A stretch of DNA of 64,000 nucleotides from Streptomyces sp. NBC_00414 (GTDB lineage Bacteria > Actinomycetota > Actinomycetes > Streptomycetales > Streptomycetaceae). The first letter of the stretch is position 1; each line of letters starts with the position of its first letter. The position numbers and the translations under genes are program-made. The DNA lies in the NCBI RefSeq assembly GCF_036038375.1, contig NZ_CP107935.1:1178001-1242000 (forward strand), written 5' to 3'. The notes below the pieces were generated by a model. It ran no database searches. It saw only the letters and a list, made by a program, of their open reading frames with translations, and was not told the origin of the DNA. Positions 15,851-26,780 of this stretch are shown in pieces.

Positions 15851-16303
15851 TCAGCGGTTCCGCGGCGGCGTCGTGAACGTTTCGTCGAAGTCCTCCTCAC
15901 GGACCACGCTCAGGGCCCAGATGATGAAGCCCGAGAAGGCGATCATCACGATCGACCAGACCGGGTAGTACGGCATGGAGAGGAAGTTGCCGAGGATGAT
16001 GAGGCCGCCGATGACCATGCCGGACACCCGCGCCCATGTCGACGCCTGGAAGAGACCGATACTGACGATCACGGCCGCCACGCCCAGCGCGAGATGGATC
16101 CAGCCCCATGAGGTGAGGTCGAACTCGAACACGTAATTGGGTGTGTTGACGAAGAGGTCGTCCTCGGCGATCGCCATGATCCCCCGGAGGATGTCGAGCA
16201 CACCCGCGATCATGAGCATGATGGCCGCGAAGACCGTCAGGCCTTCTGCCCAGTGCCGCTTGGCCGAGTGCGTGTGCGTGTGGCCGGTGTGTGTCGCAGT
16301 CAT
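15851..16303 (-). CDS. DUF7144-type four-helix membrane protein
   Basis: A 150-aa protein with a His-rich N-terminus (THTGHTHTH) and four transmembrane segments. The sequence matches the widespread actinobacterial family annotated as DUF7144 (features such as GVLDILRGI, FDLTSWGWIHL and VSGMVIGGL). Its start is 33 nt downstream of the SHOCT gene, so they probably form an operon. Homologues are common in stress clusters; the mechanism is unknown. Confidence 0.82.
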   Translation of the reverse strand: MTATHTGHTHTHSAKRHWAEGLTVFAAIMLMIAGVLDILRGIMAIAEDDLFVNTPNYVFEFDLTSWGWIHLALGVAAVIVSIGLFQASTWARVSGMVIGGLIILGNFLSMPYYPVWSIVMIAFSGFIIWALSVVREEDFDETFTTPPRNR

Positions 16304-16336: not shown

Positions 16337-16792
16337 TCAGTGACCGGCCGCCGAATGGGTGGCGCCCGACCGTCCCGAGGCGCCGGAGCCGCTCAACACC
16401 AGCTCCTTCGCCCGGTGGAACTCCTCGTCCGTGATGTCACCGCGGGCCTTGATCTCGGACAGCCGGGCGAGTTCGTCGACACTGCTCGTCCGGTCCGCGC
16501 CCCGGGCCGTCTCCCGGACGTACGACTCGAAGGCCTCGTGCTGTGCGCGCGCCTGCGCCACCTCCCGGTGGCCCATGTTCTTGCCCCGCGCGATCACGTA
16601 GACGAAGACGCCGAGGAACGGCAGGAAAGTCACGAACACCAGCCAGCCGGCCTTGCCCCAGCCGCTCATGTCGTCGTCCCGGAAGATGTCGACGATGATC
16701 CGGAACAGCAGGACGAACCACATGATCCACAGGAAGAAGACCAGCATGGACCAGAAGACGCTCATGAGCGGATAGTCGTAGGCGAGGTACAT
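16337..16792 (-). CDS. SHOCT-domain membrane protein with PLDc_N-type helices
   Basis: A 151-aa protein. Two N-terminal transmembrane helices resemble the phospholipase D nuclease N-terminal (PLDc_N) module. The C-terminus is a short SHOCT domain (DELARLSEIKARGDITDEEF), an oligomerisation or docking motif. GGAGG 7 nt before the ATG decides the start. The stress-block palindrome lies 78 nt upstream. Role probably regulatory or structural; not established. Confidence 0.85.
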   Translation of the reverse strand: MYLAYDYPLMSVFWSMLVFFLWIMWFVLLFRIIVDIFRDDDMSGWGKAGWLVFVTFLPFLGVFVYVIARGKNMGHREVAQARAQHEAFESYVRETARGADRTSSVDELARLSEIKARGDITDEEFHRAKELVLSGSGASGRSGATHSAAGH

Positions 16793-16869
16793 GTCTTTCC
16801 TCCGTCCTGGGCGTTCGCCCAGCCTTTTTCCACCGTTTTCAGCGTGCCCCGGACAAAGACCCGGTGACC

Positions 16870-16886
16870 TCACCCGGAGCGGGTGA
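16870..16886 (-). promoter_or_regulatory. Stress-block palindrome, copy 1 (exact)
   Basis: TCACCC-GGAGC-GGGTGA. It overlaps the last codons of the 450-aa membrane protein and lies 78 nt upstream of the SHOCT/DUF7144 gene pair. Read on the minus strand it continues GGTGAGGTC, an extension shared with other copies. Confidence 0.6.
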
Positions 16887-18222
16887 GAGCACCGTCCGGG
16901 GGTGGATCGGCGGCCGCGACGGCGACGAGTACCGCCACCGCGGCCAGCGCAGCCAGCACAAGGACGAGGACGAGCGCCACCGCTCCGACCGTCGGGTGGT
17001 TCCAGAGCACCAGGGCCAGGGCGCCCGCGCCGATCACGACGCCGGTGGCCCACGTCCGGCGGGCGGCCAGCCCGCGTCCCACGGGGCCGACGCGCATGCC
17101 CGCCCGGCTCAGCGCGCCGCCGGCCGCACCCGCGCCGCGCCGGGCCGCGTTCCGCACACCGACGGCCGCCCGCCCCGGGCCGTACAGATACGCGGCCAGT
17201 GCGGTGATCAGGGCGACGACGAGAAGCGTGCGCGTGCTGTCGCGCAGGAAGCGTACGAAGGTGTCGAAGATCGCCGCGGCGGCGTCCGGAGGCAGCGTGG
17301 CGGCCGGGACCGTGTCCAGGTACACCCGGCGCATGGCCGCCAGCGCGATGAGCAGCACCACCATCATCAGGCCGATGCCGAGAGCCGTGATCAGCAGCAT
17401 CGACCGGTGTTTGGGAGCGGTCCACACCGCCAGGGCCGCGAGGGCGACGGTGAGCACGGGCAGCCATGTACCGACGATGTCCAGCACCCGCATCGTGCCC
17501 TGCGCCCTGTTCAGCTCCGCGGTCCGGAACAGGGTCACGGTCCGGTCGCTGTCCGGGATGGCGGCGGCCCGCTCGAAGCCCTGGTCGACGAGGCGTTGGC
17601 GCACCTGGTCGACCACGGATCCGATGTCCAGCTCGATGGCGTCCCCCGAGGCGCGGAGGGCGCCCTGCCGCTCCCCCGTGAGCATGCTCAGCACGGCGGC
17701 GTGCGCCCGTCGGTTCGACCCTTCCCACGCCTGCTGGAAGAGGTCGCTCGTGACCACCCGGTCGACGTTGCGCCGTACGACGGTCCGTACGGCGGAGGTC
17801 AGCGGGCCGGTCAGGGCCTCGGAACCGGCCACCACGCGCGGCGGTGCGCCGGAGTCCGCGAGCACCTTGGTGAGCGAGGCCGTCACCGCCTCGACGTCCA
17901 CCTGCTCCACCACGCGGTCGGTCAGCCGGTCGGTCACCAGCTTCTGCACCGCGGGATCCGAGGCCAGGGGCGCGACCGTCGCTACGTACCGGTCGGTGTC
18001 GGACACGGTGTCGTGCACCCAGGCCGCGACGACCGCCAGGGGTGCGAGCAGGAGCGCCGCCAGGAGGAGGATCGTGGCGCCCAGCCGGCGCACCCGCCGG
18101 TGGCGCAGGGTGGCGGCCCCGCGCAGCCGCTCGTACTCCGCGTGTTCCTCGGCGCTCAGGAGACGACCGGCGTCGGTGGCTCCGCCGGAGTGGGACGGTA
18201 CGGCACCGCTGTCCGGGACCAT
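16870..18222 (-). CDS. Large membrane protein of unknown function (450 aa)
   Basis: Begins with a charged cytosolic stretch, a transmembrane helix (about 47-70), then a ~200-residue extracytoplasmic region rich in helices. Further transmembrane segments lie at about 258-300, 345-365 and 400-440. The ribosome site GAGGAGG lies directly before ATG 18222. I recognise it only as a conserved Streptomyces membrane protein. It follows the HdeD-like gene by 96 nt on the same strand and may share its transcript. Confidence 0.75.
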   Translation of the reverse strand: MVPDSGAVPSHSGGATDAGRLLSAEEHAEYERLRGAATLRHRRVRRLGATILLLAALLLAPLAVVAAWVHDTVSDTDRYVATVAPLASDPAVQKLVTDRLTDRVVEQVDVEAVTASLTKVLADSGAPPRVVAGSEALTGPLTSAVRTVVRRNVDRVVTSDLFQQAWEGSNRRAHAAVLSMLTGERQGALRASGDAIELDIGSVVDQVRQRLVDQGFERAAAIPDSDRTVTLFRTAELNRAQGTMRVLDIVGTWLPVLTVALAALAVWTAPKHRSMLLITALGIGLMMVVLLIALAAMRRVYLDTVPAATLPPDAAAAIFDTFVRFLRDSTRTLLVVALITALAAYLYGPGRAAVGVRNAARRGAGAAGGALSRAGMRVGPVGRGLAARRTWATGVVIGAGALALVLWNHPTVGAVALVLVLVLAALAAVAVLVAVAAADPPPDGALTRSG

Positions 18223-18318
18223 GGCTCCTCCTCGGAGGTGTGTGCCCGCGGCAGCGGCGTACCGCCGACGGGTTACGGGGGCTGTGGCGGCCCGGCGCCG
18301 AGGGGAGGCAGGCAGGTG

Positions 18319-19026
18319 TCAGCCGGTCCCGGCGGGGCCTGCGGGGTTCGCGGGGCCGGCCGGCTCGGTCGGGCCGGCCGGTGCACGCGCGCTCGCGACG
18401 CGCGTCCTGCCGAGCGCGGCCCGCCAGGCGAAGGCGATCGCCACCTCGACCAGGCCGAGCAGGACGAGCCACAGGCCGAGCAGCCTGGTCAGCGCCCGGG
18501 CCGACTCGGTGGGCAGTGCCAGCACCACGATCCCGGCGAGGATGCCGATCACCGCGGCTCCGAGCAGGAAGCCGCGGTGGGGCAGGTCCTTGGCGCCGAT
18601 GGCCGTGTAGAGGGTGAGGATCCCGGACACCAGCCAGACGACCCCGACGATCAGCGAGAGCGCGGCGATCGTCTGCAGCGGGTTCCGCAGGCAGAGCACC
18701 CCTGCCAGGACGTACAGCACCGCGAGGAGCAGTCCGGGCAGCCGTTCGCCCAGGTCGTCGCTGGCGAAGGACGCGACGAACCGGAAGCCCCCGGTCACCA
18801 ACAGGTACAGGCCGATCAGGACCGCGAGGACGTGCAGCGTCTCGTCCGGCCAGACCAGCACGAGGATGCCCGGCACGAGCGTGGCCACCGCCGAGCCGAG
18901 GATCCAGGTCCAGGAGTGCCCGAGCTTCGCCAGCAGTTCCGCCGGATCGCCCGACGCCCCCGGGGCCGCCCCGCCGGAGCGGTGGGCCGGTCCTGAACGC
19001 GGTGCCGGGTCAGGTGACACGGTCAT
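18319..19026 (-). CDS. HdeD-family (DUF308) membrane protein
   Basis: A 235-aa protein with six transmembrane segments in two similar halves, matching the HdeD/DUF308 family first described in E. coli acid resistance. The extra Pro/Ala/Gly-rich N- and C-terminal tails are low-complexity. GGAGGAG before ATG 19026 fixes the start. The palindrome at 19147 lies 121 nt upstream, between this gene and the divergent DUF2252 gene. Confidence 0.88.
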   Translation of the reverse strand: MTVSPDPAPRSGPAHRSGGAAPGASGDPAELLAKLGHSWTWILGSAVATLVPGILVLVWPDETLHVLAVLIGLYLLVTGGFRFVASFASDDLGERLPGLLLAVLYVLAGVLCLRNPLQTIAALSLIVGVVWLVSGILTLYTAIGAKDLPHRGFLLGAAVIGILAGIVVLALPTESARALTRLLGLWLVLLGLVEVAIAFAWRAALGRTRVASARAPAGPTEPAGPANPAGPAGTG

Positions 19027-19146
19027 GGCTCCTCCTCGCGCGGTCGACGCGGCCGGCGCGGTCGAACGGCACCGCGGGCGGACCGCCGACAGGGCGGTGT
19101 GTGGTGACCTCGACCGCCAGCGTCGCGCTCGCCGTCGGCTGCGGGA

Positions 19147-19163
19147 TCACCCCCGGCGGGTGA
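19147..19163. promoter_or_regulatory. Stress-block palindrome, copy 2 (exact)
   Basis: TCACCC-CCGGC-GGGTGA in the divergent region, 121 nt from the HdeD-like start and 161 nt from the DUF2252 start, so it could serve both. Confidence 0.6.
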
Positions 19164-19324
19164 GCCCGCCCCGTCGTGGGGGCGGTGAGGTGGGGGGCAC
19201 AGACGTGCGCCGGCGTGCGGCGGAACGGACGGCACGAGTGCTCGGTCCAGGTGCGCGTGACAGGAGCTGTGCGGAAGAGGCGGTGCTTCTCCGCACGGGG
19301 ACAGCGGTTCAGGAGGTTCACGCC

Positions 19325-20734
19325 ATGGCCGTACCGATCGCGTTCACGCCCTCCCTGTCACCGGCCGAGAGGGCGGCGTACGGCAGGAGCGCCCGTAAAC
19401 GCGCCTCCCGTTCGTGCCACGGCTGGTTCGAGGCGGAGCAGGAGCGGCCCGACCCGGTCGAGGTGATAGAGCGTCAGTCGCAGTCCCGGCTGACCGAGTT
19501 GGTGCCGATCCGCTACGGACGCATGCTGGAGTCCCCGTTCCGCTTCTACCGGGGCGCCGCGTCGATCATGGCCACGGACCTCGGGCCCGTCCCGAACTCC
19601 GGCCTGACCGTGCAGCTCTGCGGGGACGCGCATCTGCTCAACTTCCGGCTGCTGGCCTCGCCGGAGCGTCATCTGGTCTTCGACATCAACGACTTCGACG
19701 AGACCCTGGCGGGGCCGTTCGAATGGGACGTCAAACGGCTGGCGGCCAGCTTCGCGATCGCCGCCCGGGCCAACGGATTCTCCGTCAAGAAGCAGAACCG
19801 CGTGGTCCAGGCCTGTGTGCAGGCCTACCGGCGGCGGATGCGGGAGTTCGCCGGCCTGCCCACGCTCGACATCTGGTACGCGCAGGACGACGTCGACCGG
19901 ATGCGGGAGCTGCTGGCCTCCTCGATGGACAAGCGGGCCAGGCGCCGTACCGCCGACGCGACCGCCCGGGCCAAGACGCGAACCCACCTCCAGGCGTTCG
20001 AGAAGCTCACCCGGGTCACGGCCGAGGGCAGGCGGATCACACCGGACCCCCCGCTGATCACTCCGCTCCGGGACCTGCTCACGGACTCCTCCGAGGCCGA
20101 CGAGGAGAAGGAGCTGCGGACCGTCGTGGACGGGTACGCGCGGACCCTGTCCTCCGAGCGCCGGCACCTGCTGCGCCACTACCGGCTCGTGGACATGGCC
20201 CGGAAGGTGGTGGGCGTCGGCAGTGTCGGAACGCGCTGCTGGATCCTGCTGCTGCTCGGCAGGGACGACGGGGATCCCCTGCTGCTGCAGGCCAAGGAGG
20301 CACAGGAGTCGGTCCTCGCCGCGCACACGAACGGCAACCACTTCGACAACCAGGGTTGCCGTGTGGTGGCGGGCCAGCGGCTCATCCAGACGACCAGTGA
20401 CATCTTCCTCGGCTGGACCAACGTCGTCGGTCTCGACGGCCGGGGCCGGGACTTCTACGTACGACAGCTGCGGGACTGGAAGGGCATCGCCCAGCCGGAG
20501 ACCATGGGCCCCGGGCTTCTCCGTCTGTTCGGGCAGCTGTGCGGCGCGTGTCTGGCGCGGGCGCACGCCCGGTCCGGCGACCCCGTGGCCATCGCCGCCT
20601 ATCTGGGCGGGAGCGACCGCTTCGACCGGGCGCTCACCGGATTCGCGCAGGCCTACGCCGACCAGAACGAGCGGGACTTCGAGACGCTGGGCGCCGCCGT
20701 CCGCGCCGGCAGGGTCCGCGCCGAGAGTCTCTGA
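19325..20734 (+). CDS. DUF2252 protein, kinase-like fold
   Basis: A 469-aa cytoplasmic protein of the DUF2252 family. Conserved blocks LCGDAHLLNF, FDINDFDET and the C-terminal TNVVGLDGRGRDFYVRQ are present. LCGDAHLLNF/FDINDFDE resembles the catalytic and metal-binding loops of aminoglycoside phosphotransferase-type kinases, so a small-molecule kinase activity is plausible but unproven. AGGAGG 8 nt before ATG 19325 sets the start. Confidence 0.88.
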   Translation: MAVPIAFTPSLSPAERAAYGRSARKRASRSCHGWFEAEQERPDPVEVIERQSQSRLTELVPIRYGRMLESPFRFYRGAASIMATDLGPVPNSGLTVQLCGDAHLLNFRLLASPERHLVFDINDFDETLAGPFEWDVKRLAASFAIAARANGFSVKKQNRVVQACVQAYRRRMREFAGLPTLDIWYAQDDVDRMRELLASSMDKRARRRTADATARAKTRTHLQAFEKLTRVTAEGRRITPDPPLITPLRDLLTDSSEADEEKELRTVVDGYARTLSSERRHLLRHYRLVDMARKVVGVGSVGTRCWILLLLGRDDGDPLLLQAKEAQESVLAAHTNGNHFDNQGCRVVAGQRLIQTTSDIFLGWTNVVGLDGRGRDFYVRQLRDWKGIAQPETMGPGLLRLFGQLCGACLARAHARSGDPVAIAAYLGGSDRFDRALTGFAQAYADQNERDFETLGAAVRAGRVRAESL

Positions 20735-20802
20735 GGACAGTCCTGGGGCACCCACGCACAGGCCGGCACTGAGGGCACACCCGCACAGGCCGGCGCGCGG
20801 CG

Positions 20803-21000
20803 TCACTCGGGGAGCTGGCGCATCTCCAGGACCCGGAGACCCAGCGACCGGCAGCGGGCCAGCAGTCCGAACAGGTGGGCCTCGTCGATCACGGGCCCGA
20901 ACAGGACGGTCTGACCGGACATCACCACGTGGTCCAGCTCCGGGAAGGAACCGACCATCGTCTCCGACATGTTTCCGTCGACTCGGATCTCGTAGCGCAT
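20803..21000 (-). CDS. Small conserved protein of unknown function (65 aa)
   Basis: Compact 65-aa alpha/beta sequence (MRYEIRVDGNMSETMVGSFP...) without cysteines or a membrane segment. GGGAGAA 7 nt before the ATG supports it. The palindrome at 21094 lies 94 nt upstream. I do not recognise a named family. The size and fold-like pattern suggest a small ligand- or protein-binding domain. Confidence 0.7.
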   Translation of the reverse strand: MRYEIRVDGNMSETMVGSFPELDHVVMSGQTVLFGPVIDEAHLFGLLARCRSLGLRVLEMRQLPE

Positions 21001-21093
21001 GAGCTGCTTCTCCCGATGACCTGGGACAGGCGGGCCGCGCCCCTCCTCACTCGCCCTTCTTCACGATCCTGCGTCTCACCGTGCCACCCGGCC

Positions 21094-21110
21094 TCACCCC
21101 GGAGAGGTGA
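21094..21110 (-). promoter_or_regulatory. Stress-block palindrome, copy 3 (one mismatch)
   Basis: TCACCC-CGGAG-AGGTGA, 94 nt upstream of the 65-aa gene. The minus strand reads GGGGTGAGGCC after the dyad centre, as in other copies. Confidence 0.55.
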
Positions 21111-21150
21111 AACGACGATCCGTCGGCGTGCGCGGCGGGGCGTCAGCACA

Positions 21151-21198
21151 TGCGGCGGTGCGTCGGTGCGCCAACGCCTGCGGCGGTGCGTCGGTGCG
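21151..21198 (+). repeat. 20-bp perfect direct repeat, 28-bp period
   Basis: TGCGGCGGTGCGTCGGTGCG occurs at 21151-21170 and again at 21179-21198. Degenerate GTGCGTCA elements follow up to the end of the adjoining membrane-protein gene at 21213. Non-coding. Confidence 0.7.
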
Positions 21199-21212
21199 TC
21201 ACGCAGTGCTTG

Positions 21213-21734
21213 TCAGTGCGTCACGAAGAGCTTGAACGAGATGATCAGCAGGCCGAGCAGCAGATTCACCGCGGCGGTGACGGCCATCAGACGCCGGGAG
21301 GCGCCGCCCCGTCGTGCCGCGGCTGTCGACCAGCCCACCTGACCGGCCACGGCGACGGCGAGCGCCAGCCACAGGGTGCTCTCCATGCCCAGGCCCAGCA
21401 AGGGACTGACGGCCACGACGATCGCGGGCGGGACGGCCGCCTTGACGATCGGCCACTCGTCGCGGCACGCGCTCAGAACGGCCCGCCGGTCCGGGCTCTG
21501 CTGCATCAGCCGCGCGCCGAACACCTGGGCGTGGACGTGCGCGATCCAGAACGCCACTCCGGTGAGCAGCAACAGCAGCACCAGTTCCAGACGGGGGAAC
21601 GAGCCGAGTGTGCCGGCTCCGATGATCACGGAGGCGGCGAGCATGGATCCGTAGACGCCACCGGTGCAGTCGGCCCGGGCCCTTCGCTCCGCGTTGCGCG
21701 CCGCCCTGGGGGTGGCATGCCCGGTTTCGGACAT
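21213..21734 (-). CDS. Four-helix membrane protein of unknown function (173 aa)
   Basis: After a charged N-terminus four hydrophobic segments occur (about 32-50, 53-72, 100-130 and 150-170), in a layout suggestive of a small permease-like protein. GGGAG 9 nt before ATG 21734 decides the start over in-frame codons upstream. The palindrome copy at 21892 lies 158 nt upstream. Family not recognised. Confidence 0.75.
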   Translation of the reverse strand: MSETGHATPRAARNAERRARADCTGGVYGSMLAASVIIGAGTLGSFPRLELVLLLLLTGVAFWIAHVHAQVFGARLMQQSPDRRAVLSACRDEWPIVKAAVPPAIVVAVSPLLGLGMESTLWLALAVAVAGQVGWSTAAARRGGASRRLMAVTAAVNLLLGLLIISFKLFVTH

Positions 21735-21891
21735 CTCGATCTCCCTTCGGGCTCGGCACACCGGGCCGAGCACGCCGAACCGGGCGCGCCGCACCGCATC
21801 GCGTCGCATGGAGCAGCGGAAGGAGTCGCTCCGGCGGGTCGGCCGTACCGGCCGTCCTGTCCCATGGCACGCGAAGAGACCGCACGGCGCC

Positions 21892-21908
21892 TCACCCGTC
21901 ATGGGCGA
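21892..21908 (-). promoter_or_regulatory. Stress-block palindrome, copy 4 (one mismatch)
   Basis: TCACCC-GTCAT-GGGCGA in the gap between the LAL regulator stop and the 173-aa membrane protein, 158 nt upstream of the latter. Confidence 0.5.
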
Positions 21909-21971
21909 CCCTTGGCTCGCACGACCTGGGCGATCCCGGCCGGCCACGGTTGTGCCGTACTCGGGCCGTGG

Positions 21972-24716
21972 TCACAGCAACCGCAGTTCGCGCGCGCGGC
22001 GGACCGCGTCGCTGCGCCGGTTCACCGCCAGTTTCCGGTAGACGCTCTTGAGGTGGGTCTTGACCGTGTTCACCGACACGTACAGGTCGGCGGCGATCTC
22101 CTCCGTCGACATCATCTGGGCCAGCCGCCGGAGCACATCGCGCTCGCGTCCGCTCAGCGGCTCGACGACCAGCGGCGGAGGCCGGCCCTCCGCCGACCGG
22201 GCCGGCCCGGTCGGCGGAGGCGAACCGGGAGCCAGCCAGCCCGCGGCCAGAACGCGCAGGGGCGCCATGTCCAGCGAAGGCCTGATCCACGGACCGGCCT
22301 CGAGGAAGGGCCGCCGCAGACGCTCGCTCCGCGCCTCCCGCAGCGCCTGCGCGACAAGTCTGTGCGAGGCCGCGCGGTCGCCCGCCCCGTCCGCGGCCTC
22401 CGCTCTCACCAGCATGGCCCGTACGGTCACCGCGGGGCCGGTGGGGTCCTCGGGGCACAGCCCGTCGAGCAGGGCGATCGCCGCGTCGGGCCTGCCCGCG
22501 GCGAGCTGGGCGCGGGCAGCCCCCACGGCGCACGCCGCCTGGGCGTCGGGGGCCGTCTGCAGCACTTTGACGGCTGTCTCGGGGCGGCCTTCGGCCAGGT
22601 GTGCGGCGGAGGCGATCAGGGCCGTGTGCCCCTGGGCCCACGGCGAGGCGACGTCGGCGCGGACGGCGGTCTCCACCGCCGCGAGTGCGGCTCGCGGTCT
22701 GCCGCGGGCCAGGAGCAGACGCGCGGTGACGATCGCCCGGCCCGCCTCCGTCACCGGGTCGCGCGTCCCGCCGTCCTGGTGGGCCGCCTCGTGGAGCAGT
22801 GCCTGGGCCCGGCCGAGTTCGTTGCGGTCGACGGCCACCGCTGCCAGGACGAGCCGCCCGACGACCGAACCCGACGCATGCGCGGGGCCGGGCGGACCCG
22901 CGGGGTCGGACGGATGCGCGAGGCCGGACCCCTCCGTCCCGGATGTCGCCACCAGAACCCTGCGCTCCGCCCTGCCGAGCCAGCCGTGCAGGTAGTCGAT
23001 CAGGGCCAGGCGGCCCAGGCAGTCCTCCCGCGCCGACGCCGTCGCGGCCGTGCCGGAGCTGTCGTCGGTCACCGTGGACAGCGCCGCGCGCGCGTCCTCG
23101 AAACGCCCGGCCCACAGCCGTGTGGAGCCCAGGTGGGTCTGCAGGAGGGCGGTGACCTCGGGATGCTTGTCCAGGAAGTGGGCGGGGACCTCCTCCTGGA
23201 GTCTCGCGGCGGCCCGCGCGGCCGTCTCCGCCCGCCCCGGCGAACCGGTCAGCCGTGCCGCCAGTGTTTCCAGCAGCGCGCAGCTCAGCCGGGCGGCGGC
23301 CTGCGCCGCTCCCCCGCCGGGCGGACCGTCCTCCCGGTCCAGGCTCTGCCGCGCCCGGCGCAGGCTGGGCAGGCCGTGTTCCAGGTCGCACCGGGCCAGC
23401 TCCCGGGCCGCGCGTACGAGGTCCGCGGCGGGGCTCGTGGCCTCGGGCCCCATCCCGGCGAACAGCGCGGTCAGGTCGTCGGAGCGCAGGCCCGTGAACA
23501 GTTCACCGATGGCGAGGTCGTCGACGAGCGCACCGGCGGTGAAGTCCCAGTCGCCCGCGGCGGCACCCTGCCCCAGCGTCTCGGCGAGAGAGCCGGAGCA
23601 CCGCAGCCAGGCCGCCGCCCGCCGATGGAGTTCGGGCTCAAGGCCGGGTGAGCGCATCCGCAGATGGGCTCGGAGGATCTCGCCGAACAGCGGGTGGAGG
23701 CGGTACCAGGTGTGCCCGAGGTCCTCGACGAACGCGTTCTCGCGGTGCAGCCCCGCCAGGATGGGTTCGGCGTCGGCGCGTTCCGTCAGCGCGTTCGCCA
23801 GGGCGGGACTGAAACGGTCGAGGACGCTCACCCTCAGCAGGAGGTCCTGGGCCTCGGGCGTCTGCCGCTTGAGCACTTCCGCCAGGAGGAAGTCGGCGAC
23901 CGTGGAGCGGCCTGCCTCGAACTCCTTGAGATACGTCTCCGGATTCGGGCTCTCCCGCGCGGCCAGGGCACACAGGCGCAGGCCCGCGGCCCATCCCCGG
24001 GTGCGTTCCACGAGTGCGCGAGCGGCGTGGACCGGAACACGCAGTCCGTGGGTCTCCAGGAGCACGGCCGCCTCCTCCGGGGTGAAGGCCAGCTCCGCGT
24101 CCCTGATCTCGGTCATGTCGCCGGCCGCCCGGTAGCGGTGCAGCGGCAGCAGCGGTTCGGTGCGGGTGACCAGGATCAGGCGCAGGCCCCGGCCCGCGTG
24201 GTGCAGGACGAACTCCAGCTGCTCCGCGATCTCCGGGTCGGTGACACGGTCGTACTGGTCGATCACCACGGTCACGGCCGCATCCCGGGCGCTCAGTTCG
24301 GCGGCCAGCCGGGCCAGGAGCGGGTGGTCCACACGGCCGACGTCGGCGGGGTCGCCGAGTTCGGCCGACCTCGGCACACCGGAGGCGCGCAGGGCCTGGA
24401 GGAAGTAGGCCCAGAACACTCCCGGCTGCTGGTCCGTCGCCTCGCTGGTCAGCCAGGCGAGGGGCCCGTCCCGCCCGGTGGCCCAGTCGGCGACCAGCAG
24501 GGTCTTGCCCGCGCCCGCGGCTCCGTTGACCAGGGTCAGCGGTGTCAGGAGGGACCGGTCGAGATGCCGTACCAGCCGGTCGCGCCGCAGGAACATCGCC
24601 GGACGTCCGGGCACGGCGAACCTCGTACGCAGAAACGGGTCACCCCGGGGATCGGCATGCGGTGCCGTCGGTACCGAACCGTTCGTCTCGCACCCGGCCA
24701 TGGCGCTCACCACCAC
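21972..24716 (-). CDS. LuxR-family LAL/MalT-type ATP-dependent regulator
   Basis: A 914-aa STAND-class transcription activator. Walker A GAAGAGKT (65-72), Walker B VTVVIDQYD, a winged-helix/NB-ARC-like region, a long TPR-like helical sensor (about 380-820) and a C-terminal LuxR HTH (about 850-914, LSGRERDVLRRLAQMMSTEEIA). Such proteins switch on operons when an inducer binds and ATP is bound. The start is uncertain: GTG 24716 or ATG 24701, neither with a good ribosome site. It sits inside the palindrome-marked stress block but lacks the palindrome itself. Confidence 0.9.
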   Translation of the reverse strand: MVVSAMAGCETNGSVPTAPHADPRGDPFLRTRFAVPGRPAMFLRRDRLVRHLDRSLLTPLTLVNGAAGAGKTLLVADWATGRDGPLAWLTSEATDQQPGVFWAYFLQALRASGVPRSAELGDPADVGRVDHPLLARLAAELSARDAAVTVVIDQYDRVTDPEIAEQLEFVLHHAGRGLRLILVTRTEPLLPLHRYRAAGDMTEIRDAELAFTPEEAAVLLETHGLRVPVHAARALVERTRGWAAGLRLCALAARESPNPETYLKEFEAGRSTVADFLLAEVLKRQTPEAQDLLLRVSVLDRFSPALANALTERADAEPILAGLHRENAFVEDLGHTWYRLHPLFGEILRAHLRMRSPGLEPELHRRAAAWLRCSGSLAETLGQGAAAGDWDFTAGALVDDLAIGELFTGLRSDDLTALFAGMGPEATSPAADLVRAARELARCDLEHGLPSLRRARQSLDREDGPPGGGAAQAAARLSCALLETLAARLTGSPGRAETAARAAARLQEEVPAHFLDKHPEVTALLQTHLGSTRLWAGRFEDARAALSTVTDDSSGTAATASAREDCLGRLALIDYLHGWLGRAERRVLVATSGTEGSGLAHPSDPAGPPGPAHASGSVVGRLVLAAVAVDRNELGRAQALLHEAAHQDGGTRDPVTEAGRAIVTARLLLARGRPRAALAAVETAVRADVASPWAQGHTALIASAAHLAEGRPETAVKVLQTAPDAQAACAVGAARAQLAAGRPDAAIALLDGLCPEDPTGPAVTVRAMLVRAEAADGAGDRAASHRLVAQALREARSERLRRPFLEAGPWIRPSLDMAPLRVLAAGWLAPGSPPPTGPARSAEGRPPPLVVEPLSGRERDVLRRLAQMMSTEEIAADLYVSVNTVKTHLKSVYRKLAVNRRSDAVRRARELRLL

Positions 24717-24839
24717 TGTTCTCAGGCCACACGGTCAGCGCTTCCTCCCCAGCATCCCAGGGTTCCCCGATACCTGCGCGTCGCGCGGGCGTCCCCGGGC
24801 GCGGACCGGTTCCGGTGGCCTCGAACTCCGCCCCGGCGC

Positions 24840-26660
24840 TCAGCCGAGGGCGTCCATCTCCTGGTCGAGGGAGAGGGCGGCCGTGATGAGCGCCAGGTGC
24901 GTGAACGCCTGCGGGAAGTTTCCGAGCTGCTCCCCCGTCGAGCCGATCTCCTCCGCGAACAGGCCCACGGGATTGGCGTAGGTGAGCATCTTGTCGAAGG
25001 CGTACCTGGCCGGGCCGAGCTGACCGGCCTGCGCCAGCGCGTCGACGTACAGGAAGCTGCACAGGGAGAACGTGCCCTCGCTGCCGCGCAGACCGTCCGG
25101 GGACGCCTGCGGGTCGTAGCGCTGGACGAGGCTGTCGGAGACGAGTTCCTGTTCCATCGCTTCGAGGGTGGACAGCCAGCGCGGGTCCTTCGGCGAGATG
25201 AAGCCGACGGAGGGCATGAGCAGCAGGGACGCGTCGAGGGTGGTGTCCTCGTAGTTCTGGACGAACGACTGGCGCTCGGTGCTCCAGCCGCGCTCCATCA
25301 CCTGGCGAAGGATGTTGTCCCGGGCCGTGGTCCACTCCGGGATGTCGGCGGGCCGGGCGAAGTCACGGGCCATCCGGATGCCCCGGTCGAAGGCGACCCA
25401 GCACATGAGACGGCTGTAGGTGAAGTCCTTCTGCCCGCCGCGCGTCTCCCAGATCCCCTCGTCGGGCCGGTCCCAGGCCTTGACCAGCCAGTCCAGCACA
25501 CCGGACAGCGCCTGCCAGCCGTCGTACGGCGGCGCGTTGCCGGCGCCCTGCACCGTATGGGACAGGGCGAACACCGCCTCGCCGTAGATGTCGAGCTGGA
25601 GCTGTCCCGCGGCGCCGTTGCCCGCGTACACCGGCGCCGATCCGCGGTAGCCCTCGAAGTGGTCGAGGGTCTCCTCCGGCAGTTCGGGGTCGCCGTCGAC
25701 GCGGTACATGATCTGCAGGGGTTCGCCGCTGACCGTGCGGCCCGCCCTCAGCCGGTCGCCGAGCCAGGCGCGGAACGCGTGCGCCTCCTCGATGTGGCCG
25801 AGGCCCAGCAGGGCGCCGACCGACATCGAGCCGTCCCGCACCCAGGTGTAGCGGTAGTCCCAGTTGCGGCCGCCGCCGATCTGTTCGGGCAGCCCCATGG
25901 TGGGTGCCGCGACGGGCGCCCCGGTCGGCGCGTACGTGAGCAGTTTCAGGGTGATGGCCGCCCTGTTCACCATGTCCTGCCAGCGTCCGCGGTAGCTGCT
26001 GCGGCGTACCCACGCGTGCCAGAAGTCCCGGGTGCTCTCGAAGAGCGCCCGGACGTCCGAGGGTGTCAGTGGCGGTACGGCAGTGTCGTCGGCATCGCCG
26101 ACCGTCAGGGCGAGGGCGGCGAAATCCCCCTCCTCCATGGTCAGTTCGCCGCGGATGTCATCGCCTTCCCTGTTCCACCGCACCGGGCCGACCGTCTGCA
26201 CCACGGCCTGGGCGCCGGGGGCGTCGAAGCGCACGGTGTCCCCGCCGAGGTCGACGCGGTGCCCGGCGCGGCCGTAGTCGAAGCGCGGCCTGCACTCCAG
26301 TGAGAAGCGGACCAGGCCGCGGGTCACCCGCAGGATCCTGACGAGCCGGTGCCGGCCCACCGCGCGCTCGGGGCGCTCCACCGGCATGAAGTCGACCACT
26401 TCGCCGACGCCCGACTCCGTCAGGAACCGCGTCACCAGGATCGCGGTGTCCTGAAGGTAGATCTGCACCGGTGGCTGCGCCGTCTCGGCGGACACGGTGA
26501 AGTGACCACCGCGGTCGTGGTCGAGGAGCGAGGCGAACACGCTGGGCGAGTCGAACCTGGGCGCGCACAGCCAGTCGACCGTGCCGTCGGAGGAGACCAG
26601 TGCGGCGGTCTGGAGGTCACCGACCAGTCCGTGGTCGGCGATGGGGGGATAGCGTCGCAT
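24840..26660 (-). CDS. GH15 family glycoside hydrolase, trehalase/glucoamylase-like
   Basis: A 606-aa cytoplasmic enzyme with an N-terminal beta-sandwich (about 1-220) and a C-terminal (alpha/alpha)6 barrel. The barrel shows GGGRNWDYRYTWVRDGSM and EEIGSTGEQLGNFPQAFTH, the hallmark segments of GH15. The actinobacterial cytosolic members characterised so far hydrolyse trehalose; glucoamylase activity is the alternative. No signal peptide. ATG 26660 fits the family start (MRRYPPIADHGLVGD). The palindrome at 26764 lies 104 nt upstream. Trehalose turnover fits a stress block. Confidence 0.9.
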   Translation of the reverse strand: MRRYPPIADHGLVGDLQTAALVSSDGTVDWLCAPRFDSPSVFASLLDHDRGGHFTVSAETAQPPVQIYLQDTAILVTRFLTESGVGEVVDFMPVERPERAVGRHRLVRILRVTRGLVRFSLECRPRFDYGRAGHRVDLGGDTVRFDAPGAQAVVQTVGPVRWNREGDDIRGELTMEEGDFAALALTVGDADDTAVPPLTPSDVRALFESTRDFWHAWVRRSSYRGRWQDMVNRAAITLKLLTYAPTGAPVAAPTMGLPEQIGGGRNWDYRYTWVRDGSMSVGALLGLGHIEEAHAFRAWLGDRLRAGRTVSGEPLQIMYRVDGDPELPEETLDHFEGYRGSAPVYAGNGAAGQLQLDIYGEAVFALSHTVQGAGNAPPYDGWQALSGVLDWLVKAWDRPDEGIWETRGGQKDFTYSRLMCWVAFDRGIRMARDFARPADIPEWTTARDNILRQVMERGWSTERQSFVQNYEDTTLDASLLLMPSVGFISPKDPRWLSTLEAMEQELVSDSLVQRYDPQASPDGLRGSEGTFSLCSFLYVDALAQAGQLGPARYAFDKMLTYANPVGLFAEEIGSTGEQLGNFPQAFTHLALITAALSLDQEMDALG

Positions 26661-26763
26661 GGTCGGTGCTCCCTTCCGGCCGGAGCGCCCCCGGGCGTCG
26701 AATGCCCGGGCACCGTGTCACGCTCCACGACTGCCAACATCGCCGCGCAGCGCCGTGCGGGCC

Positions 26764-26780
26764 TCCCCCGCGACGGGTGA
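26764..26780 (-). promoter_or_regulatory. Stress-block palindrome, copy 5 (one mismatch)
   Basis: TCCCCC-GCGAC-GGGTGA, 104 nt upstream of the GH15 gene. Confidence 0.5.

Follow-up and report, generated by a model that had tools for sequence, protein, structure and literature searches.

A TCACCC-N5-GGGTGA palindrome of Streptomyces sp. NBC_00414 as the probable operator of a MalT-like LAL regulator

Introduction

The closest described counterpart of the system analyzed here is that of MalT (ACSP50_3915) in Actinoplanes sp. SE50/110, a large ATP-binding regulator of the LuxR family (LAL) that activates a region of 51 genes (PMC7567727; this and the other papers below are cited from selected passages). 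In those passages, the motif TCATCC-5nt-GGATGA is placed 34.4 +/- 1.0 nt before 17 start sites, and transcript data show most genes of the region changed upon deletion and overexpression of malT; the condition studied was maltose rather than stress, and no maltose genes were affected (PMC7567727). The boxes of Escherichia coli MalT, quoted in the same paper, are GGGGA(T/G)GAGG units (PMC7567727). In Streptomyces venezuelae, the operator of the BldM homodimer (Group I) is TCACcCgnncGgGTGA, with an N4 spacer (PMC4125116). Among Streptomyces LALs, SCO6993 of Streptomyces coelicolor is reported as a repressor, with unrelated palindromes and no consensus (PMC9628970), and the passages on SCO0877 and SCO7173 give no binding motif (PMC3282765). 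Here, we analyze the palindrome TCACCC-N5-GGGTGA, which recurs upstream of several genes in a 64,000-nt stretch of Streptomyces sp. NBC_00414 (contig NZ_CP107935.1, positions 1,178,001 to 1,242,000; the window hereafter, numbered from its first letter). Within its partial coverage, the literature searched held no report of this operator in Streptomyces, which is not proof of absence.

We conclude that this palindrome very probably serves as the operator both of the LAL whose gene lies at 21972-24716 and of its paralogue from another cluster elsewhere in the genome, and that the LAL would activate the local promoters in the manner of a class II activator.

Results

Five palindromes and one LAL gene in the window

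The palindrome occurs in the window twice as exact copies and three times with one mismatch, and nowhere else in the 64 kb at up to one mismatch. The sites precede a PLDc_N/SHOCT-DUF7144 gene pair, divergent HdeD-like and DUF2252 genes, and the genes of a 65-amino-acid (aa) protein, a 173-aa protein and a GH15/TREH_N enzyme (Table 1). Genes were called with a small codon-based finder made for this analysis rather than taken from public annotation. Dinucleotide shuffles gave a mean of 0.30 sites at up to one mismatch, and none of 100 reached the five observed; for exact copies, 2 were found against 0.00 expected. An earlier sequence-only reading had listed these five sites and considered their clustering unlikely by chance, and both statements hold. 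Its further observation that four copies continue as GGTGAGG(C/T) is exact for those before the SHOCT, 65-aa and 173-aa genes; the copy before the GH15 gene reads GGGGAGGC. Allowing two mismatches added one site (47172) and no excess (6 versus 5.07).

The protein encoded at 21972-24716 is a LAL by both defining features, being large with a Walker A/B ATPase part (GAAGAGKT and VVIDQY) and ending in a GerE/LuxR helix-turn-helix (PF00196 at residues 853-908, 55.9 bits against a cut-off of 23.5). Its ATPase part matches the MalT structure PDB 8bob (E 1e-36). Two further matches fall below the cut-offs of their models, namely, Pfam AAA_22 and the NCBIfam MalT model NF003420, which the window LAL matches in its N-terminal part at 265.7 bits (cut-off 537).

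A second cluster with a paralogous LAL

The genome, a single contig of 10.35 Mb, contains three exact copies of the palindrome, two of which are in the window. At up to one mismatch the palindrome was found at 42 places, compared with 14 for the reversed pattern: five in a 10-kb stretch of the window, seven in a second cluster and 30 elsewhere. The second cluster spans 17 kb at 8.55 Mb; its seven sites are all intergenic, with gene starts 35-121 nt away on both sides. Each cluster holds one LAL. That of cluster 2 (L001:12654-15314; Walker motifs GPVGAGKS and LVLDDF) is 84% identical to the window LAL over the last 64 residues, the helix-turn-helix, and 36-40% identical over the remainder. A search of the genome with the window helix-turn-helix returned 69 matches at E 0.001, the two LALs at 100 and 83% identity and the next at 48 and 46%. 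Besides the LAL, the clusters share a DUF7144 protein (33% identity) and a 65/98-aa small protein (43%), which suggests duplication of a regulatory module whose DNA-binding part was retained. The genes of the second cluster (L001 and L002, 8.545-8.585 Mb) encode DUF7144 and 98-aa proteins, a GH63-like enzyme, SulP, MFS, BrkB-DAGK and hexapeptide proteins.

The palindrome ranks first around LAL genes of the genus

Among 121 sampled genomes of the genus, 48, this one included, encode a match to the window helix-turn-helix at E 1e-16 or better. Set 1 consists of 48 LAL neighbourhoods (L061-L108; 909 kb, some ending at contig ends) from 47 other genomes, picked by protein alone. When all 6-mer inverted repeats with gaps of 0-14 were ranked in this set, TCACCC with gap 5 came first, with 57 copies between genes, spread over 37 of 48 regions, and 6 coding copies; with shifted registers excluded, the runner-up reached 7 regions. 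At up to one mismatch, 44 of the 48 regions had an intergenic site (129 intergenic, 16 coding). Nearly all named relatives of the LAL belong to Streptomyces. In set 2, which comprises 77 named loci retrieved by a search with the full-length LAL, TCACCC with gap 5 again ranked first (66 loci, 115 copies). Eight of the 77 were dropped (seven repeating set 1, one from Winogradskyella), and 64 of the remaining 69 had intergenic sites at up to one mismatch (195 intergenic, 10 coding). The motif is thus not as frequent in coding DNA as between genes in LAL neighbourhoods, where it is mostly intergenic. Because the genomes share ancestry, statistics across them, P values included, are only descriptive here and below.

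The spacing is strict. Across the 117 non-repeated loci (48 of set 1, 69 of set 2), intergenic TCACC(C/T) facing (G/A)GGTGA was found 259 times at N5 (105 loci), never at N4 or N6, 6 times at N0 and at most twice at every remaining gap. The N0 form is the sole other gap with several copies in L061-L108 (6 intergenic in 5 of 48 regions). The motif is better written TCACC(C/T)G-N3-C(G/A)GGTGA.

A -10-like element at a fixed distance

Alignment on the palindrome toward the gene revealed an A at +24/+25 and a T at +28/+29, the xAxxxT pattern of a -10 element, and no recognizable -35 box between the palindrome and the -10-like hexamer at the aligned sites. Counting only sites with a gene on one side, the hexamer was present on the gene side of 75/88 sites in set 1 and 120/153 in set 2, compared with 9/88 and 6/153 on the other side. 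With T allowed at +27 to +29, the pattern preceded genes of unrelated families: 30/30 of the 65-aa family, 29/30 of SHOCT, 14/14 of HdeD and 13/14 of DUF7144, and was weaker before DUF2252 (7/14) and other genes (5/24). In the window, both A and T are present on 4/6 promoter sides, and the DUF2252 and 173-aa sides have the T only. If this T is -7, the palindrome would extend from about -51 to -35, with its centre near -43, the usual position of a class II activator; the transcription start, placed from the -10-like hexamer, would lie about 35-36 nt past the palindrome.

A search of the genome for operator plus -10 pattern (first half-site TCRCCY) gave 7 matches, one of them inside a called gene, and 1 for the reversed control. 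The 30 palindromes outside the clusters comprise 21 coding and 9 intergenic places, and none of the 9 has the -10 pattern. Because all 7 operator-plus--10 matches lie within the two LAL clusters, a genome-wide stress regulon is unsupported here.

Sites and their mismatches recur before orthologues

Orthologues of the main targets mostly carry a site upstream: 29/39 in set 1 and 49/59 in set 2 for SHOCT (within 300 nt), 14/18 and 33/37 for HdeD, 14/20 and 19/30 for DUF2252, and 30/37 and 54/63 for the 65-aa protein. The palindromes are a shared, conserved cis-element of these units, in line with the sequence-only reading; the conservation that it looked for before orthologues was found for most of those of the main targets and not for most of those of the 173-aa protein.

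The imperfect sites of the window also recur in relatives. The TCACCT form of operator 3 is present in 28/31 rows of 65-aa promoters, window counted. The GGGGGA form of operator 5 stands upstream of GH15-like genes in 3/8 rows, namely, in L078, L125 and L131, where two of the three genes were called only as short pieces. The TCGCCC form of operator 4 is the commonest one before MFS genes (18/27 rows, one locus counted twice). Many relatives have an MFS gene, lacking in the window, that separates the 173-aa gene from such a site; in 22 rows (two loci counted twice) it stands 16-120 nt before the 173-aa gene. Five loci resemble the window in having a TCGCCC site before the 173-aa gene instead of MFS. 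Judged by this recurrence, the mismatches are conserved as such and belong to their promoters, whose strength they perhaps set.

The 65-aa protein is among the most constant targets. Its structure model (predicted local distance difference test 93.9) is of the ferredoxin-like type. Compared with the PDB, the model gave no hit at E 0.001 or better, so no function is assigned; the protein has no NCBIfam or Pfam match at E 0.001.

Sites follow the LAL across genomes

Exact palindromes average 2.94 per genome in the 48 LAL-positive genomes versus 1.14 in the 73 LAL-negative ones; every LAL-positive genome has at least one, and 22 LAL-negative genomes have none. For operator plus -10, we found 154 matches in the LAL-positive genomes (46 with at least one) and 22 in the LAL-negative ones, with 2 for the reversed control in all 121, that is, 3.2 versus 0.30 per genome, or about ten times rarer without the LAL. 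Moreover, target genes and sites co-occur: both are present in 44/48 regions of set 1 and neither in 4; in set 2, both in 63/69, neither in 5 and sites only in 1. In one genome (G026, contigs C5 and C8), operator-plus--10 elements lie on a contig other than that of the LAL, so action of the LAL at a distance is possible in some species.

The module beyond the genus

The helix-turn-helix was matched in 109/245 genomes of the order (2/8 genera) and in 12/296 genomes of the phylum (6/198 genera). Nine LAL loci, all the matches outside the genus, were examined. Exact TCACCC-N5-GGGTGA lies between genes in L188, L189 and L190; near-matches are present in L191, L192 and L193, and L196 has two exact copies of TCATCC-N5-GGATGA. 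Over the nine loci, 11/13 listed intergenic sites show the -10 pattern toward at least one flanking gene. L196 also holds homologues of the DUF7144, 98-aa, MFS, 450-aa, BrkB and SHOCT proteins and, on this gene content and motif, is a bridge between the Streptomyces system and the Actinoplanes MalT region. The LAL of L196 (7345-10140), beside its TCATCC-N5-GGATGA sites, has the recognition helix TVRTH versus TVKTH in the LALs of the window and cluster 2; in this single case, the substitution is a possible specificity change. In L189 (3553-3587) and L190 (1395-1429), the region between two divergent genes contains a pair of exact palindromes separated by 18 bp, each correctly spaced from the -10-like hexamer of one of the two genes.

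Table 1. Putative operators, -10-like hexamers and genes of the window (distances are to called gene starts)
Feature	Position	Strand	Remarks
Operator 1	16870..16886	-	exact; 78 nt upstream of SHOCT gene (SHOCT/DUF7144 pair)
Operator 2	19147..19163	.	exact; between divergent HdeD (121 nt) and DUF2252 (162 nt) genes
Operator 3	21094..21110	-	TCACCT variant half-site; 94 nt before 65-aa gene
Operator 4	21892..21908	-	TCGCCC variant half-site; 158 nt before 173-aa gene
Operator 5	26764..26780	-	GGGGGA variant half-site; 104 nt before GH15 gene
-10-like CACGCT, SHOCT promoter	16841..16846	-	A +25, T +29 from palindrome end
-10-like GACGCT, HdeD promoter	19119..19124	-
TGAGGT, DUF2252 side	19186..19191	+	T at +28, no A at +24; incomplete match
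-10-like CAGGAT, 65-aa promoter	21066..21071	-
TGCCAT before 173-aa gene	21864..21869	-	T at +28, no A at +24; incomplete match
-10-like GATGTT, GH15 promoter	26736..26741	-
DUF7144 protein	15851..16303	-	second gene after operator 1; cluster 2 paralogue 33% identical
PLDc_N/SHOCT protein gene	16337..16792	-	first gene after operator 1
HdeD-like (DUF308) gene	18319..19026	-	NCBIfam HdeD model match below its cut-off
DUF2252 gene	19325..20734	+
65-aa protein gene	20803..21000	-	predicted ferredoxin-like fold; 43% identical to cluster 2 98-aa protein
173-aa protein gene	21213..21734	-	no Pfam or NCBIfam match at E 0.001; putative membrane protein in the sequence-only reading
LAL regulator gene	21972..24716	-	MalT-like ATPase part, C-terminal GerE/LuxR helix-turn-helix; 914 aa (874 aa if start = 24596)
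GH15/TREH_N enzyme gene	24840..26660	-

Discussion

The sites, their conservation before most main-target orthologues, the strict N5 gap, the fixed distance to the -10-like hexamer and the association with this type of LAL are documented at the level of sequence. By analogy with MalT of E. coli and Actinoplanes, the LAL would bind and activate under the control of ATP and a sugar-like signal. In the mechanism that we propose, the LAL carrying ATP and signal would bind the palindrome, a dimer (or two protomers of an oligomer) contacting both half-sites, which are separated by one helical turn and lie within about -51 to -35. The bound LAL would then adjoin RNA polymerase holding the xAxxxT -10 element at promoters without a recognizable -35 box, giving class II activation of the SHOCT-DUF7144, HdeD, DUF2252, 65-aa, 173-aa (behind MFS in many relatives) and GH15 units. 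A sugar-derived signal would accord, if loosely, with the presence of the GH15/TREH_N enzyme in the window and of a GH63-like enzyme in cluster 2.

Several observations weigh against this interpretation. The -10 pattern is weak before MFS genes (1/9) and is found on only 5/14 promoter sides of cluster 2. Orthologues of the 173-aa protein mostly lack a site (0/16 in set 1 and 5/32 in set 2 have one). LAL promoters rarely carry one (4/42 and 4/69 loci), and none was seen in the promoter of the window LAL, for which autoregulation was accordingly set aside. The 1.14 exact palindromes per LAL-negative genome exceed the reversed control (10 in all 121 genomes), and 18/73 of these genomes have at least one operator-plus--10 match. 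Conversely, nine LAL loci (4/48 and 5/69), some with a near-identical helix-turn-helix, have no sites; all nine also lack the core target genes. They are L114, L115, L120, L121 and L145, and L073, L097 (cut by contig end), L101 and L108. Outside the genus, L194 and L195 have neither motif among the nine loci, and L191 and L193 have only a near-match without the -10 pattern.

BldM, or BldM with WhiI, was considered in earnest as the reader of these sites because its homodimer operator TCACcCgnncGgGTGA shares the half-site TCACCCG (PMC4125116), which would make the palindromes targets of a developmental regulator. BldM also has a LuxR-type helix-turn-helix, 21/64 residues of which are identical to the LAL, and LAL-positive genomes have slightly more N4 sites than LAL-negative ones (5.7 vs 4.7, P 0.045). 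The protein is encoded in this genome, identical over 203 residues to what we take to be the S. coelicolor sequence. Against this stand the 259 N5 and zero N4 intergenic half-site pairs in the 117 LAL loci, the lack of any N4 site at up to one mismatch in the window or the second cluster, though the genome has 102, and a difference between LAL-positive and LAL-negative genomes that is far larger for N5 (2.9 vs 1.1). Spacing and distribution thus disfavour BldM, which we hold very unlikely to be the reader. An unlinked LuxR-type regulator, with the LAL a mere passenger of the cluster, could draw on the 69 helix-turn-helix matches of the genome, on the exact palindromes of some LAL-negative genomes and on the usual lack of a site at the LAL promoter. 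Its chances are equally slim, given that this type of helix-turn-helix is present only in the two LALs, each inside one site cluster, and that a LAL-negative genome has, on average, about a tenth as many operator-plus--10 elements. Cluster 2 does encode a small 160-aa LuxR-type protein (L001:12154-12636); none of the called genes of the window cluster corresponds to it, and it is disfavoured as the binder.

That the LAL binds the palindrome and mainly represses, or acts both ways, has a precedent in the reported repressor SCO6993 of S. coelicolor (PMC9628970), and yet is hardly probable: the fixed spacing from the palindrome to the -10-like hexamer downstream of it fits a class II activator, no -35 box is seen between them, and Actinoplanes MalT activates with what would be the same geometry (PMC7567727). 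Finally, a chance cluster or RNA hairpins acting as terminators can be given almost no weight. The palindrome could fold into a hairpin with a 6-bp stem and a loop of 5 bases, and operator 1 overlaps the stop codon of a called 450-aa gene (16870-18222). However, conservation before orthologues already contradicts this explanation, as do the shuffles and the fixed spacing to the -10-like hexamer, and no T-run lies within 12 nt on either side of any of the five sites; both chance and hairpins were rejected.

Activation by the LAL at 21972, which the sequence-only reading had named as one candidate regulator, is therefore retained as the probable explanation, and this LAL is now by far the best candidate from its helix-turn-helix, the motif ranking and the co-occurrence with sites. 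Other parts of that reading need revision. An "undescribed regulator" does not fit the published passages on Actinoplanes, where a MalT-type LAL is paired with TCATCC-N5-GGATGA at what would be the same promoter position (PMC7567727); both the kind of regulator and an almost identical operator are thus already published in another genus. The motif, taken for no known Streptomyces box, has the half-site of BldM, which is spaced by N4 there (PMC4125116). The "stress regulon" derives from the names of the genes, and what singled out the Actinoplanes region was a maltose response (PMC7567727).

These results provide a likely operator, promoter geometry and regulator for a module whose LAL type occurs in 48/121 sampled genomes and link Streptomyces to the Actinoplanes MalT regulon. 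The module is rich in proteins of unknown function, and its regulon and signal become directly testable. To us, the odds are even that the same half-site, TCACCCG, is read by two activator families in one cell, one base pair of spacing apart: by BldM at N4 for development, and by the MalT-like LAL at N5 for a mobile, widespread actinobacterial module (LAL, 65/98-aa ferredoxin-fold protein, DUF7144 and variable membrane proteins) whose half-site would drift between TCACCC and TCATCC among lineages. This one-base difference from BldM is the most interesting part, as it could be used to test cleanly how LuxR-type activators that share a half-site are kept from cross-talk.

Compared with known systems, the window LAL belongs to the same protein class as SCO6993 and SCO0877/SCO7173, as far as the cited passages describe them. 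With E. coli MalT it has in common an ATPase part that matches the MalT structure; it differs in its N5 palindrome and in an NCBIfam MalT score under the cut-off. The half-site TCACCCG is common to the BldM system, as its recognition by a LuxR-type helix-turn-helix and activation would be; the present system differs in spacer (N5 here, N4 there), in regulator (LAL here, response regulator there) and in targets, those of BldM being developmental, e.g., whiB and ssgR (PMC4125116). The likeness to Actinoplanes MalT, as reported in the available passages, has several parts: a MalT-like LAL gene lies inside the site-bearing region, hexamers are inverted around a 5-nt spacer, the 3' end of the motif, mapped there about 34-35 nt from the start, would lie at a similar distance here, and many membrane, transport and unknown genes are found in an order shuffled between species (PMC7567727). 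In contrast, the half-site is TCATCC there and TCACCC, sometimes TCACCT, here; the gene content, as far as those passages give it, differs, with an arginine deiminase operon and others there; and the maltose response and the deletion and overexpression data belong to the Actinoplanes system (PMC7567727). Overall, what we describe is best regarded as a Streptomyces counterpart of the Actinoplanes MalT regulon, differing from it in half-site and genes.

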